From Desulfamplus sp. (lineage in GTDB: Bacteria; Desulfobacterota; Desulfobacteria; Desulfobacterales; Desulfobacteraceae): a DNA stretch of 64,000 nt. Each line of letters starts with the position of its first letter. Position 1 is the stretch's first letter. The DNA is taken from contig JADFZQ010000001.1 of NCBI GenBank assembly GCA_015232455.1, forward strand, positions 186,001 through 250,000, in the 5' to 3' direction. Made by a program: the position numbers and the translations under genes. The notes beneath the pieces are model-generated. The model saw nothing but the letters and a program-made list of their open reading frames with translations, made no database searches and was not told where the DNA came from. Shown here one piece after another: positions 6,016 to 11,096 of the stretch.

Positions 6016-6261
6016 TTATTTGTAATGATTTGTAATTGTTATTATTTCAGCTTCATTATCAATTAATATAAATACCGCCCTGTATTTTAAATCTAATCTA
6101 AATGAATATATTTTTAAGTGTTTTGGCTCTAAAAGCTCAACATTTAAAGATGGATGACTTATATCTTGTTCAAATAACTTTTCTGCTTTACGAAATTTTC
6201 TTTCAAGCTTGTGGATACTAAGATATTGTTTTATACTCTCTTTTAAAGGCTTGATTTTCAT
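6016..6261 (-). CDS. RelE/ParE-superfamily toxin
   Basis: The 81-residue basic protein ends in LKYRAVFILIDNEAEIITITNHYK, the beta-sheet core typical of RelE/ParE/YafQ-type toxins, most of which cleave mRNA at the ribosome. The N-terminal half (KIKPLKESIKQYLSIHKLERKFRKAEKLF) forms the two helices. Its start overlaps the upstream antitoxin stop by 4 bp, which implies translational coupling. The exact target is unknown. Confidence 0.72.
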   Translation of the reverse strand: MKIKPLKESIKQYLSIHKLERKFRKAEKLFEQDISHPSLNVELLEPKHLKIYSFRLDLKYRAVFILIDNEAEIITITNHYK

Positions 6262-6503
6262 TTTTCAAGATACACCGTTGATGTTTCTAAACCTTCTTTT
6301 ACATCGTTAACGAAATCTTGACTATAACCAGCTTTTGTTAATTCTTTTACAACAGAATCAAGAGACATTTGTTTGTCATACTCTTCTAATTTAAAATTCT
6401 CTTTTCTAATTATTATCTCAACATTTCTAAAAAGTAGCTCTTTTATTATGTCTAAAAGCTTATGGTTAATATCATCGTTTTTTACATTAAGAATTGCCTG
6501 CAT
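6258..6503 (-). CDS. Antitoxin partner of the RelE-like toxin
   Basis: 81 residues (MQAILNVKNDDINHKLLDIIKELLFRNVEIIIRKENFKLEEYDKQMSLDSVVKEL...). The gene immediately precedes and overlaps the toxin gene by 4 bp, the usual antitoxin-first order. The N-terminal segment resembles the beta-alpha strand of small antitoxins, and the acidic C-terminal helix (DVKEGLETSTVYLEK) would wrap the toxin. The family is not firmly recognised; the call rests mainly on position. Confidence 0.62.
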   Translation of the reverse strand: MQAILNVKNDDINHKLLDIIKELLFRNVEIIIRKENFKLEEYDKQMSLDSVVKELTKAGYSQDFVNDVKEGLETSTVYLEK

Positions 6504-6527: not shown

Positions 6528-6998
6528 TCAAGATGATGGCAGCCAACCATCTGAAAGAATATCGCTAACAGACCAAAGGCATATTTCAGGAAAGTTATCT
6601 AATCCAGTCTCTTTTGATGCTTGATAAACAGCATCTCCCCATATAATCTCAAGCCATTGAACATCATCTAATTTTACTTTCAGACTTGGCACCTCTTTTA
6701 GATGGATAGAGATTGCTTTTCGTTGATTACGGATTGTTAGTTGCCAACTTCTGCTTTGGCATTCAGGTTGAAATTGCCATTTAAGAAGATGTGCTATCAA
6801 AACGACCATACGGTTGGCAAGCTCACGTTGTTCAATTTTACCTACATCCTCTATCTCCTCTGCAATATGTTCAATATCCAAAAACTCAAACTTCTTATTA
6901 CGAACTAACCACGCCTGCTCATTTGCCCATGCAACAATGTCTGTTTCATAATCAATCAATGAGCAGTTTTCTCTTTGTAGAGCCTGATGAGCAGTCAT
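6528..6998 (-). CDS. DUF29 family protein (intact copy)
   Basis: 156 residues from the ATG at 6998. The frame is open further upstream, but that part crosses the predicted attC core and cassette leader. The sequence LIDYETDIVAWANEQAWLV...FEFLDIEHIAEEIEDVG...LIAHLLKWQ is characteristic of DUF29, a helical family of unknown function that is frequent in accessory regions. The 5' 411 bp of this locus are duplicated at 8186-8597, where the C-terminal third is missing. The real C-terminus here is SLKVKLDDVQWLEIIWGDAVYQ...DGWLPSS. Function unknown; cassette position suggests an accessory or toxin/defence role. Confidence 0.8.
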   Translation of the reverse strand: MTAHQALQRENCSLIDYETDIVAWANEQAWLVRNKKFEFLDIEHIAEEIEDVGKIEQRELANRMVVLIAHLLKWQFQPECQSRSWQLTIRNQRKAISIHLKEVPSLKVKLDDVQWLEIIWGDAVYQASKETGLDNFPEICLWSVSDILSDGWLPSS

Positions 6999-7096
6999 AG
7001 ATTTTGTCCTCAAACATTCTTGAATAATATTAGCCCGGCGATAAATCGCACGGCTAAGGAGTGTAAAAAGTCCAGTAAAGTGGACTGTAATAACAA
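6686..7096 (-). repeat. DUF29 cassette 5' repeat, copy 1
   Basis: Nearly identical to 8186-8597, with a handful of substitutions and one single-base indel. It covers the cassette core, a leader with two small hairpins and the first two thirds of DUF29. The right edge falls at the predicted crossover point of the attC core (shared TTGTTATTAC on the minus strand, preceded by A here and by G in copy 2). Confidence 0.88.
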
Positions 7097-7177
7097 TTAG
7101 CTCAACACAGCCACGCCCGACAAACTCCAAAAGTACCGCTCACGTCCTGCTTGGTCTGGTGCAGCGTTTGGTTAAAA
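7091..7177 (-). repeat. attC-like site 1 (between MNT and DUF29)
   Basis: On the minus strand it starts TTTTAACC, 38 nt after the MNT stop, and ends ATTGTTA immediately before the DUF29 cassette leader. The arms are imperfectly complementary (CGCTGCACCAGACC against GGCTGTGTTGAGC). It is 87 bp long, like the other sites. The weakest of the four in base pairing; supported by its position and by the repeat edge. Confidence 0.55.
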
Positions 7178-7215
7178 TGATGTTTGCTAAATCTTTAAAC
7201 TTACATGCTCATCTT

Positions 7216-7889: not shown

Positions 7890-7930
7890 TTTATATCCTT
7901 TTCGGCGTATAGTGGTAAGAACCTGCCGAT

Positions 7931-7966
7931 GATACTATTTTAAATAACATTATTTAAAATAGTATC
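7931..7966. promoter_or_regulatory. Perfect 17-bp inverted repeat upstream of the HEPN gene
   Basis: GATACTATTTTAAATAA, a 2-nt spacer, then its exact reverse complement. The element is AT-rich and has no T-tract. It lies 42-77 nt before the HEPN start codon, where a promoter and autoregulatory operator would be expected. It could instead be the remnant end of a small mobile repeat. Confidence 0.5.
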
Positions 7967-8078: not shown

Positions 8079-8498
8079 TTATCCTGTTTTAGGGATTTTG
8101 AGTTGTTCGAACATAAAGCTCATCAGATGATCCCAGCTATTAAAGAAAAGGTATTTTGTCAATGTGGCGGTGGATGTCGAAGAAGTTGGCACCTCTTTTA
8201 GATGGATAGAGATTGCTTTTCGTTGATTACGGATTGTTAGTTGCCAGCTTCTGCTTTGGCATTCAGGTTGAAATTGCCATTTAAGAAGATGTGCTATCAA
8301 AACGACCATACGGTTGGCAAGCTCACGTTGTTCAATTTTACCTACATCCTCTATCTCCTCTGCAATATGTTCAATATCCAAAAACTCAAACTTCTTATTA
8401 CGAACCAACCACGCCTGCTCATTTGCCCATGCAACAATGTCTGTTTCATAATCAATCAATGAAAATTTTTCTTTTTGTAGAGCCTTATGAGCATTCAT
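8079..8498 (-). pseudogene. Truncated DUF29 copy fused to foreign sequence
   Basis: From the ATG at 8498 the first ~105 residues match the intact DUF29 protein almost perfectly (identical from LIDYETDIVAWANEQ to LKEVP). At 8186 similarity stops abruptly and the frame continues with unrelated residues (TSSTSTATLTKYLFFNSW...) for about 35 codons. The inserted DNA at 8079-8185 has, on the plus strand, an open frame reading HQMIPAIKEKVFCQCGGGC, possibly the fragment of another gene. The protein lacks the DUF29 C-terminus and is probably non-functional. Confidence 0.75.
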
Positions 8499-8597
8499 AT
8501 ATTTTGTCCTCAAACATTCTTGAATAATAATTAGCCGAGCGATAAATCGCACGGCTAAGGAGTGTAAAAAGTCCACTAAAGTGGATTGTAATAACAA
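8186..8597 (-). repeat. DUF29 cassette 5' repeat, copy 2
   Basis: Second copy of 6686-7096, offset by 1500 bp at its left edge. The left break interrupts DUF29. The right break coincides with the attC core G/TT position at 8597/8598. Confidence 0.88.
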
Positions 8598-8656
8598 CGA
8601 GTTAACCGGGCTTCGCCGGCATGTGGCGAAGCTCCGCTTGAACGCCGGGTTATGAC
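8592..8656 (-). repeat. attC-like site 2 (between HEAT-like gene and DUF29 copy)
   Basis: On the minus strand it starts GTCATAAC, containing the TAA stop of the HEAT-like gene, and ends CTCGTTGTTA before the DUF29 leader. The arms GAGCTTCGCC and GGCGAAGCCC pair around ACATGCC with one mismatch, and GTTCAAGCGG matches the usual attC left arm. At 65 bp it is the shortest of the four. Confidence 0.68.
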
Positions 8657-9084
8657 TTCACTTTGGGCAGAGTTGACAACACATTTTGAACCCACTTGTT
8701 AAAGCCTCCACCCTTTTCATAGGTGAATATATCAAAATCTTCTGGGTACAATTCTTTGAATTTTTGATTGAACTCCGTTTCTACATATTCACCGCTTATT
8801 GAGACAAGAACTTTTCCCAGCTTTTTGTTTATGTCTTTCAACAAGTGTCCTTTTTGCTTTCTGGGTAACTTGACATCCTCCCCAAAAGTTTGGAGCTTTC
8901 TAAACGACAGTTCCTGAACTGCGTACACCTTGTCATTCATCATAAGCCTCCAAAGAATGTCTTTGGATTGTTGGCATTTGAATTTTCCAAGCTCTTCCGC
9001 TGCCTCTAAACGATTTTTGTAGCTCGTCTTGTCAGATGCCTGCTTCTTCAGCACCTCAATATTTTCAGGAGTAATATTTTCCAT
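8650..9084 (-). CDS. HEAT-repeat-like cassette protein, function unknown
   Basis: 144 residues from the ATG at 9084. This start is preferred because AGAGGA lies just upstream and because the longer frame would extend into the attC site at 9111-9202. Residues about 20-68 (NRLEAAEELGKFKCQQSKDI...NDKVYAVQELSFRKLQTFG) look like one or two HEAT-type helical repeats. The C-terminal part (FNQKFKELYP...GGGFNKWVQNVLSTLP) is unassigned. The stop codon is inside attC-like site 2. No function is claimed. Confidence 0.7.
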   Translation of the reverse strand: MENITPENIEVLKKQASDKTSYKNRLEAAEELGKFKCQQSKDILWRLMMNDKVYAVQELSFRKLQTFGEDVKLPRKQKGHLLKDINKKLGKVLVSISGEYVETEFNQKFKELYPEDFDIFTYEKGGGFNKWVQNVLSTLPKVKS

Positions 9085-9110
9085 CAGAGTCCTCTCGTTG
9101 ATTGGTGAAG

Positions 9111-9202
9111 GCATAACGTCTGGGGTAACCTGCTGCACTACCAAGCTTTACCGCGACAGCACCGCCGACGTTCTAGCAGTCAGGTTGACCCCATTGTTAG
9201 AC
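9111..9202 (-). repeat. attC site 3 (after the putAbiC gene)
   Basis: The minus strand begins GTCTAAC (a perfect RYYYAAC; its TAA is the putAbiC stop) and ends GTTATGC. The inner arms GGGGTCAACCTG and CAGGTTACCCC are complementary except for one unpaired base, the extrahelical base typical of attC. A variable 40-50 nt centre separates them. Length 92 bp. One of the two clearest sites. Confidence 0.82.
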
Positions 9203-9997
9203 AATTTTTGGTTTTCCATATGCAGAATCACTAAATAGAGAGTGATGCTCATCAGGATCAATTAGTAATTCTTCAGGTAAATTTTTAAATAAAGCGAATT
9301 CTTCAACCATTGGTTTAAACTTTTCAACACCATATTTGCTTAGACAATTATAAAATAGTAATAACAACTCAGCGTCAGATAATTGAGCACGTACTAAGTT
9401 GGTGTAGAAACGCTTGTCTGCTACGGAACTTCTTTTTACAAACTTGATAATATTATATAGGTAACGAAAGTAATGACCAATTTCGTGCCCAATATTTGGA
9501 TAGAAATTATTGTATATTTCTGACGGTTCAAGAGAGGGATTTTTGTTTTTTTGGCCCATGTAATTATTTTTAAATCTGCTGTAAAAAATCACAAAACAAT
9601 CTCTTCCAGCTGTCACTCTATCTTTAGATGTTAAATCAATAGAATTGATTATTTCATTATGTAATCGAAGCAATTGAAAGAAAGTATTCTCAAAATTTTG
9701 TAATTTAAAAGTTTCGTTTTGTGCTTGAAGTTGTAATTTTTGTCCCTCTAACTCGTTTCGAGTTAGCTCAAGTTCTTTACGTTGCAATTCAAGCTCTTGA
9801 CGTTGTAATAAAATTGCAAAAATAACTCCTGCAAATGCAAAACCAGAAAATAACGCATTAATGGCACCAAACATGTCGCCAAAAGTACCTCTTTCGTCAA
9901 CTCCATTAAGAGTTATGCCTGAAATAAGCCAAACAAAAAAAATAAGGATCATAAGTTTGTAAAGTGAATTTAAAGTTAACTCCTTAATATTTTGCAT
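9197..9997 (-). CDS. Putative phage abortive infection protein (putAbiC family)
   Basis: 266 residues from the ATG at 9997, 19 nt after the core of attC site 4; the frame is open further upstream only through that site. Two N-terminal membrane segments (LMILIFFVWLISGITL and FSGFAFAGVIFAILL) flank GTFGDMFGAINALFSG. A coiled coil follows (LQRQELELQRKELELTRNELEGQKLQLQ), then FENTFFQLLRLHNEIINSI, GRDCFVIFY, GHYFRYLYNIIKFV and LVRAQLSDAELLLLFYNCLS. This is the signature of the putative AbiC family (PF16872 by recollection). Membrane anchoring suggests a cell-suicide or sensing role during phage infection; the mechanism is unknown. Confidence 0.82.
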   Translation of the reverse strand: MQNIKELTLNSLYKLMILIFFVWLISGITLNGVDERGTFGDMFGAINALFSGFAFAGVIFAILLQRQELELQRKELELTRNELEGQKLQLQAQNETFKLQNFENTFFQLLRLHNEIINSIDLTSKDRVTAGRDCFVIFYSRFKNNYMGQKNKNPSLEPSEIYNNFYPNIGHEIGHYFRYLYNIIKFVKRSSVADKRFYTNLVRAQLSDAELLLLFYNCLSKYGVEKFKPMVEEFALFKNLPEELLIDPDEHHSLFSDSAYGKPKIV

Positions 9998-10015: not shown

Positions 10016-10101
10016 GGCTAACGCTCGCATAACCGGCTGGTAAAAGCTGTATAGCGAAGCGGCACAGATTTTACCAGTCCGAGTTGATGCTGTTGTTAGG
10101 T
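10016..10101 (-). repeat. attC site 4 (after the small membrane protein genes)
   Basis: The minus strand begins ACCTAAC (a perfect RYYYAAC) and ends GTTAGCC. The arms GGACTGGTAAAA and TTTTACCAGCCGG are complementary, and the outer arms GCATCAACTC and GGTTATGCGAGC pair imperfectly. Length 86 bp. One of the two clearest sites. Confidence 0.82.
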
Positions 10102-10376
10102 GAATATTTATCTTCATGTATATCTTCGCTAAAGAATCCCATCCAAAACGCCCCGTTAAATAGAAACATAATAGTAAATAGAAAAGCGATGAAAGGGATA
10201 AAAGGAAGAATAACTTCGATAGTAAATGTTTGAATACCGAAATATTGAAAAACATGCTTGATAGCACTAAAAAATAAAGATACCGGCAAGATGAATACAA
10301 AGAGAATAGCTGATAATGCCTTCCTAAAATAGTTCATAAAATTATTAAGTTCACGTTCACTGACTCTTTTCTTCAT
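10071..10376 (-). CDS. Small membrane protein, cassette gene, function unknown
   Basis: 101 residues from the ATG at 10376, preceded by GAGGTG at about 8 nt. A basic N-terminus (MKKRVSERELNNFMNYFRK) precedes two or three hydrophobic segments (ALSAILFVFILPVSLFF; VILPFIPFIAFLFTIMFLF). The last ten codons and the stop lie inside attC site 4, common for cassette genes. It follows the 10393-10833 gene by 16 nt, so the two probably form one two-gene cassette. No family recognised. Confidence 0.68.
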   Translation of the reverse strand: MKKRVSERELNNFMNYFRKALSAILFVFILPVSLFFSAIKHVFQYFGIQTFTIEVILPFIPFIAFLFTIMFLFNGAFWMGFFSEDIHEDKYSPNNSINSDW

Positions 10377-10392
10377 TATTTTACACCTCGCC

Positions 10393-10833
10393 CTATCTAT
10401 GAAAAAGATTTCTAAACTTTTTTCCAGCCTCAAATGCTTTAGCACCGAAAAAACTGTATAACGACGTTGCGAATCCAACTGCACCAATAGAGGCTATGGA
10501 GTAGCCGACAACCATATCTATACCAGGAATCAAAGGGGTAAACATTGCCATAGTCGATACCGCAAATGCATATTTTTTATTTCTTTCGTTATTGTTTGAT
10601 ATGATTATATCGTTTTTGGCTTTTGAGATTTGAACTGATGAATTTGCTTGAGCTTTCATGAGCAACGCTATATCCCTAGCTGATAACCCTCTATCAACAA
10701 GAGCTAAGGTTAGGTTCGCTTGATGAATGGTGTCTGATGGCTCCTTTCCATATGGATCAATTCTTTCTATAGCAACTTTGTTGGGTCTACTATTATGAGG
10801 AACAAGAACCTTTGTATTTTCACCGTCTCTCAA
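10393..10833 (-). CDS. Unknown protein with C-terminal membrane hairpin, cassette gene
   Basis: 146 residues. The start is a TTG at 10833 with GGGGGT just upstream. A soluble N-terminal half (ERIDPYGKEPSDTIHQANLTLALVDRGLSARDIALLMKAQANSS) is followed by two hydrophobic helices (AFAVSTMAMFTPLIPGIDM, VGYSIASIGAVGFATSLYSFFGA) and a basic tail. It is the first gene of the array and lies 263 bp downstream of alaS. It is paired with the small membrane gene at 10071-10376. No family recognised. Confidence 0.62.
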   Translation of the reverse strand: MRDGENTKVLVPHNSRPNKVAIERIDPYGKEPSDTIHQANLTLALVDRGLSARDIALLMKAQANSSVQISKAKNDIIISNNNERNKKYAFAVSTMAMFTPLIPGIDMVVGYSIASIGAVGFATSLYSFFGAKAFEAGKKFRNLFHR

Positions 10834-10873
10834 TTTACCCCCTTTTTAGTCTCTACAGCACCTCAATATCACC

Positions 10874-10982
10874 TAAGCATTGATTATCAGGTCTTTTTTA
10901 CCTGAAAACACCTTAAATTCACTATTATCAAAGCGATTTGACCTGATAACACTCTAAATCCCAACTTATCAGGTCAATGCTT
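10874..10982. promoter_or_regulatory. Repeated TTATCAGGTC sites at the head of the cassette array
   Basis: The 10-mer TTATCAGGTC occurs at 10884-10893 and 10966-10975 and inverted at 10940-10949, with a partial inverted copy ACCTGA at 10900. The block is bounded by AAGCATTGA (10874) and its inverse TCAATGCTT (10973). It lies between alaS and the first cassette gene. It could be an operator cluster, alternative hairpins in a leader RNA, or a decayed insertion end. Confidence 0.45.
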
Positions 10983-11096
10983 CAAAAATATTATTAGCAC
11001 CAATAAATAGCTTGTTACTACATGTAGAACATAAGAATAGTATCCGTATCTCAATTAATTCGGGCTAAAGCTAAAAAATAAGCGAATAGGGAGATA

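Follow-up and report, generated by a model that had tools for sequence, protein, structure and literature searches.

The window, by which we mean the whole stretch of 64,000 nucleotides from Desulfamplus sp. that was analysed, contains an array of small genes and attC-like sites between alaS and a permease gene, with alaS and recA at the proximal end of the array. The gene of main interest encodes a protein of the putAbiC/AbiP superfamily and lies between two sites designated A and B (Table 1). Its neighbours include a HEAT-repeat protein gene, two DUF29 genes, two ORFs of no recognised family, a HEPN/MNT pair and a RelE/antitoxin pair (6016-6503). The interval that separates the stop of alaS from the first array ORF (10860-11000) contains several copies of the motifs ACCTGATAA / TTATCAGGT and could be a regulator-binding or an old attachment region. 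A perfect 17-bp inverted repeat (GATACTATTTTAAATAA, 7920-7965) that lies between the HEPN gene and the remnant of DUF29 is not an attC site; it may be a terminator or mark one end of a small element.

Table 1. Genes and recombination sites of the array, in positions of the window
Feature	Position	Strand	Evidence and remarks
Distal DUF29 gene, intact	6528..7028	-	PF01724 6.6e-43
Site E, between the distal DUF29 cassette and the MNT gene; degraded or doubtful as an attC	7088..7181	-	DUF29 duplication supports the R' edge; z +0.8
Proximal DUF29 copy	8079..8501 (cassette region 8079-8597)	-	PF01724 9.9e-31, confined to profile positions 2-91 of 138
attC site C, downstream of the HEAT-repeat cassette	8588..8656	-	Fold z -4.0; R' = GTTATTAC
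HEAT-repeat protein gene, cassette between A and C	8650..9144	-	PF13646 3.2e-4, under the Pfam cut-off
attC site A, downstream of putAbiC	9111..9202	-	R'' GTCTAAC with stop codon, R' GTTATGC; extrahelical base in L''; score 19.3; z -2.4
putAbiC/AbiP-superfamily gene	9997..9197	-	ATG to TAA, 266 aa; PF16872, PADLOC AbiP, AlphaFold, hydropathy
attC site B, upstream of putAbiC	10016..10103	-	R'' ACCTAAC, R' GTTAGCC; three extra L''-arm bases; score 18.9; z -3.7
Small membrane protein ORF, cassette upstream of putAbiC, reads into site B	10071..10379	-	ORF; no family
ORF at the alaS-proximal end of the array	10393..10833	-	ORF call; no family

The 266-aa protein matched PF16872 with 84.8 bits over profile positions 5-78 of 80 (E 5.9e-24), whereas the curated cut-off of this family is 22 bits, and a profile search of the 4.35-Mb genome found the window gene as its one PF16872 copy. 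The first-pass annotation, made from the letters and their open reading frames, had described a putAbiC-type gene of this family. The family assignment is thus confirmed far above the cut-off, but the nearest characterised defence profile is AbiP and not AbiC: PADLOC AbiP (PDLC02351) matched at E ~4.2e-19 over profile positions 23-173 of 223, a match judged by its E-value rather than by the PADLOC coverage rule and made by the C-terminal part of the protein only, while AbiC (PADLOC PDLC02343) gave no significant match to the window protein (E 0.0085). Among 34 aligned homologues, the AbiP profile was matched by 31 and the AbiC profile by 15 (E <= 0.001). Because both profiles are matched within one set of homologues, AbiP and AbiC of Lactococcus appear to belong to one wide superfamily, in which the window protein seems closer to AbiP. 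The residues Q65, F102, E103, F106, F107, Y198 and E210 are invariant across the 34 homologues, and these positions include neither a histidine nor any other typical catalytic set. A check for HEPN found no HEPN Pfam match, no histidine of the Rx4-6H motif among the invariant positions and no clear result in the fold comparison. The name putAbiC itself was not mentioned in the literature that our search returned.

The first-pass annotation had further described the gene as flanked by attC sites, with the stop codon inside the attC core. Both claims are borne out. The TAA of putAbiC falls within the R'' box of site A (GTC-TAA-C), with the same stop-codon offset in R'' as in Vibrio putAbiC cassettes (L091-L094), and 18 nt separate the R' of site B from the ATG. 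The sites were scored with a scanner of our own with relaxed boxes, whose sensitivity falls short of that of a calibrated attC model, and its negatives therefore carry less weight than its positives; a strict consensus scan (RYYYAAC...GTTRRRY) gave zero matches and the relaxed boxes were required. On this scanner real Vibrio VCR sites score 16-21, a range that includes the scores of sites A and B, and Markov-resampled window DNA gave 3 matches with scores >= 18.5 in 640 kb.

We considered whether the flanking hairpins are chance inverted repeats or terminators rather than attC sites. The single-stranded folding of site E, which is not better than that of shuffles, and the lack of an integrase or attI adjoining the array are in line with this alternative, but sites A, B and C all fold better than their shuffles (Table 1), and sites with scores at the level of real VCRs stand at both edges of one gene. 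In sites A and B, the R'' arm has extra bases relative to the R' arm on the gene strand, which is the strand expected for extrahelical bases and the polarity of Vibrio sites read in the cassette direction. Near-copies of both sites also exist in the same genome: that of site B (86% identity, G000:C70:250-335) at the start of contig C70 and that of site A (70% identity, G000:C8:137-234) at the start of contig C8. In both cases the similarity is confined to the stretch from R'' to R', and unrelated genes adjoin.

The two DUF29 cassettes of the array (6528-7028 and 8079-8597) bear on the same alternative. Their alignment showed that they are nearly identical from the R' triplet on and unrelated before it, and the likeness begins at the R' of site C (GTTATTAC), so that the duplicated cassette begins exactly at R' and R' is marked as a recombination point. 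Because the near-copies end at R'' and R' and the DUF29 pair is alike from R', the case for attC is independent of any score, and we regard an origin of the hairpins as chance repeats or terminators as highly improbable. The putAbiC gene is a genuine integron gene cassette, with one gene, attC sites on both sides that are oriented with the gene, and the stop codon in R''. The last third of the proximal DUF29 copy, at its 3' end, is replaced by unrelated, transposase-like sequence (KYLFFNSWDHLMSFMFEQL).

Neither intI nor attI was found adjoining the array, so that it lacks the adjacent pair that defines a complete integron. Sites A, B and C lie within 1.6 kb without a neighbouring intI, which corresponds to the definition of a CALIN (at least two attC sites, no nearby integrase). 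The best integron-integrase match in the genome is a truncated 224-aa ORF on contig C2 (G000:C2:24602-25237; L002 1486-2160) that covers profile positions 1-210 of 315 and thus lacks about the last third of the profile; a scan found no attC array around it. This ORF shares ~50% identity with a plasmid-borne integron integrase of Kovacikia minuta. The remaining integrase matches in the genome are weak, below the cut-off and of a kind also present in control genomes. Because no intI or attI adjoins and the best integrase match is truncated, the array is a CALIN that is not evidently movable by the genome's own integrase and would need one in trans, unless the 82-contig assembly misses an intact copy.

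This bears on a broader proposal of the first-pass annotation, in which putAbiC, the HEPN/MNT pair and the RelE module form a movable set. The putAbiC cassette fits that proposal, but the surroundings of the RelE/antitoxin pair yielded no attC, and at most one, the degraded site E, follows the HEPN/MNT pair, with none before it; the nearby DUF29 cassette is truncated, and no integrase adjoins. As for expression, scans of the region found neither promoter-like sites nor terminators above the level of shuffles. Since this holds for promoter-like sites and the gap between R' and the ATG is so short, transcription of putAbiC seems to depend on an outside source.

Contig C70 (G000:C70; L138, 5032 bases), which starts with the copy of site B, carries genes that we named by eye as a cupin, an acetyltransferase, an AbrB/Doc-like toxin-antitoxin pair and a TIR-like nucleotide-binding protein, and is probably another cassette region. 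At a contig end of C8 (G000:C8; L139 130-245 and 1252-1345), small membrane-protein genes are flanked by the copy of site A and by a long dyad with a scan score of 23.4; this is probably one more cassette fragment.

The AlphaFold model of the whole putAbiC protein has a mean pLDDT of 92.8 and consists of a helix at residues 2-30, a continuous helix at 36-119, a small hairpin and a helical bundle. Two segments, ~12-30 and ~42-64, are hydrophobic enough for membrane helices by hydropathy, and in the model the second predicted membrane helix extends as a coiled coil into the helical PF16872 domain. The protein is thus predicted to have an N-terminal membrane anchor followed by a cytoplasmic domain, the arrangement that characterises AbiP, but with two helices. 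Membrane anchoring and a coiled coil had both been anticipated from the translation, and model and hydropathy agree with them. The cytoplasmic part is charge-neutral (27 K+R, 27 D+E) and was modelled alone with a pLDDT of 96.4. Foldseek and VIA-align 2, applied to the whole protein and to the domain alone, gave no clear fold in the PDB; the best Z values, 6.4 and 5.5, are no more than within the range of common helical arrangements. A FADD-type relationship was dropped, as FADD appeared in the PDB sequence search at chance level only (E 0.08).

What might such a protein do? PdpSau of S. aureus resides in the membrane, stalls the replication of phage DNA and changes both the permeability and the potential of the membrane in infected cells, and it is structurally similar to AbiP (PMC10127798), which is reported to be membrane-anchored and to bind nucleic acid (Domingues 2008, as cited in PMC10127798). 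By analogy with these proteins, the window protein is probably a membrane-anchored abortive-infection effector of the AbiP/PdpSau type, carried in a promoterless CALIN cassette; homology and distribution are what suggest the anti-phage role. Its two N-terminal helices would anchor it in the inner membrane, and the second helix, prolonged as a coiled coil, would join subunits and bear the cytoplasmic helical PF16872 domain. This domain may sense a phage product, and nucleic acid, as in the case of AbiP, would be the likeliest one; in response, phage replication would be stopped, the membrane disturbed, or both, and the infected cell would die or stall ahead of phage release. Several features speak against this reading: PdpSau is described with one membrane helix and the window protein has two, the AbiP match is made by the C-terminal part only, the cytoplasmic part is neutral, unlike the positively charged domain of PdpSau, promoter-like sites do not rise above shuffles, and the secondary structure of the model leaves no space for the OB fold reported for PdpSau. 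Tentatively, and with clearly less confidence, we can also imagine that the cytoplasmic PF16872 domain has a helical sensor/effector fold of its own, to which no solved structure is related, and that the two-helix members form a widespread single-gene defence class captured many times by integrons, plasmids, filamentous phages and prophages; their mechanism, not yet worked out for any member, might then be an oligomerising membrane disruption triggered by phage nucleic acid.

Homologues of the protein were found in 12 of the 395 genomes of the phylum sample, in 31 of 296 Vibrionaceae genomes, on 9 plasmid records and on 32 IMG/VR viral contigs. A filamentous Vibrio phage/inovirus (f237-like; MT188664.1, L055 7321-8169) carries a 42% identical homologue that is annotated as a hypothetical protein and is possibly an inter-phage defence gene. 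Its presence there, together with the homologues on the viral contigs, where exclusion of rivals is common, raises the question of whether the protein is a factor in superinfection exclusion or phage competition, one that blocks the entry of DNA or keeps a rival phage or element from being assembled and does not kill the infected cell. The two-helix membrane anchor would suit such a factor, but entry exclusion needs no large conserved cytoplasmic domain, and PdpSau, with its AbiP-like structure, leaves adsorption unaffected while phage DNA is present in the cell (PMC10127798). We consider an exclusion factor improbable and keep the abortive-infection effector as the preferred reading.

Cassettes with this gene are not limited to the window. 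The first-pass annotation had proposed a survey for attC-flanked putAbiC genes in other genomes, and such genes turned up in five Vibrionaceae chromosomal integrons (L091, L092, L093, L094 and L096), where each is surrounded by an array with 4 to 20 attC sites over 7-17 kb. In one of them (L092), from Vibrio sp. HDW18, the protein (WP_001893680.1) is 41% identical to the window protein and annotated as 'putative phage abortive infection protein'. A sixth locus, L095, is a possible further integron-borne member, and two others (L097 and L098) were dropped, as they have no surrounding array despite attC calls. For the 33 loci of named relatives in the genome collection, our own scanner gave no attC call at the gene that was convincing. 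A tree of 57 proteins requires at least five state changes for the integron-borne members, also when only well-supported branches are counted; the partner of the window protein is a same-phylum homologue without visible attC, and no attC was found for a homologue that groups with the Vibrio cassettes (G202). Repeated separate capture by integrons appears to be the simplest reading of this tree, and losses could stand in for some of the gains.

The surroundings of the homologues are less telling. Many homologues are lone genes beside ordinary genes, and the neighbourhoods of 33 homologues hold some defence genes, yet the control set is likewise rich in PADLOC matches, so that enrichment of defence genes was not demonstrable against this control. 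These surroundings would suit an accessory membrane protein for stress or maintenance that has no anti-phage role and to which putAbiC is a transferred label. Such a role is quite improbable in our view, as it accounts poorly for the patchy distribution, the repeated capture by integrons, plasmids and phages and the significant similarity to the AbiP and AbiC profiles, all of which fit better with an abortive-infection effector.

Cassettes encoding HEPN and RelE toxins have been on record since 2013 (PMC3710099), and the experimental demonstration of anti-phage cassettes, in mobile as well as chromosomal integrons, followed in 2025 (Darracq, Getz and Kieffer, as cited in PMC12409362 and PMC12444791). 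Defence genes in integrons are thus known, and the gene described here is a well-supported further example of known biology in a different lineage, not a new system. With it, the evidence for small anti-phage genes being collected by integrons extends to a bacterium beyond the well-studied Gammaproteobacteria. Sequence comparisons suggest that the AbiP/putAbiC family entered integrons several separate times, and the family is therefore a good choice for a functional test.

AbiP of Lactococcus has been described with a single membrane anchor. The window protein resembles AbiP of L. lactis (PDLC02351) in its significant profile match over the cytoplasmic domain and in having an N-terminal anchor followed by that domain, a likeness known from sequence and model, and it differs in its two predicted membrane helices and in being carried as an integron cassette. 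AbiC of L. lactis (PDLC02343) is related in the wide sense of the superfamily, through the homologues that match its profile, whereas the window protein itself does not match it significantly. PdpSau, found in S. aureus prophages, is also a membrane-anchored single-gene abortive infection protein of similar size, with a reported AbiP-like structure (PMC10127798); compared by description, it has one membrane helix where the window protein has two, and its domain is positively charged and OB-like (PMC10127798), whereas the cytoplasmic part here carries no net charge. The anti-phage cassettes of 2025 are likewise small defence cassettes in integrons, but those were tested by expression, while the window gene is known from its sequence and sits in a CALIN. 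The closest parallel in gene arrangement is given by the Vibrionaceae putAbiC cassettes, such as that of Vibrio sp. HDW18, in which a PF16872 gene also lies between attC sites with the same stop offset in R''; these belong to large VCR arrays of Gammaproteobacteria, whereas the window gene appears to be a separate capture, in another phylum and with attC sites of another sequence family.
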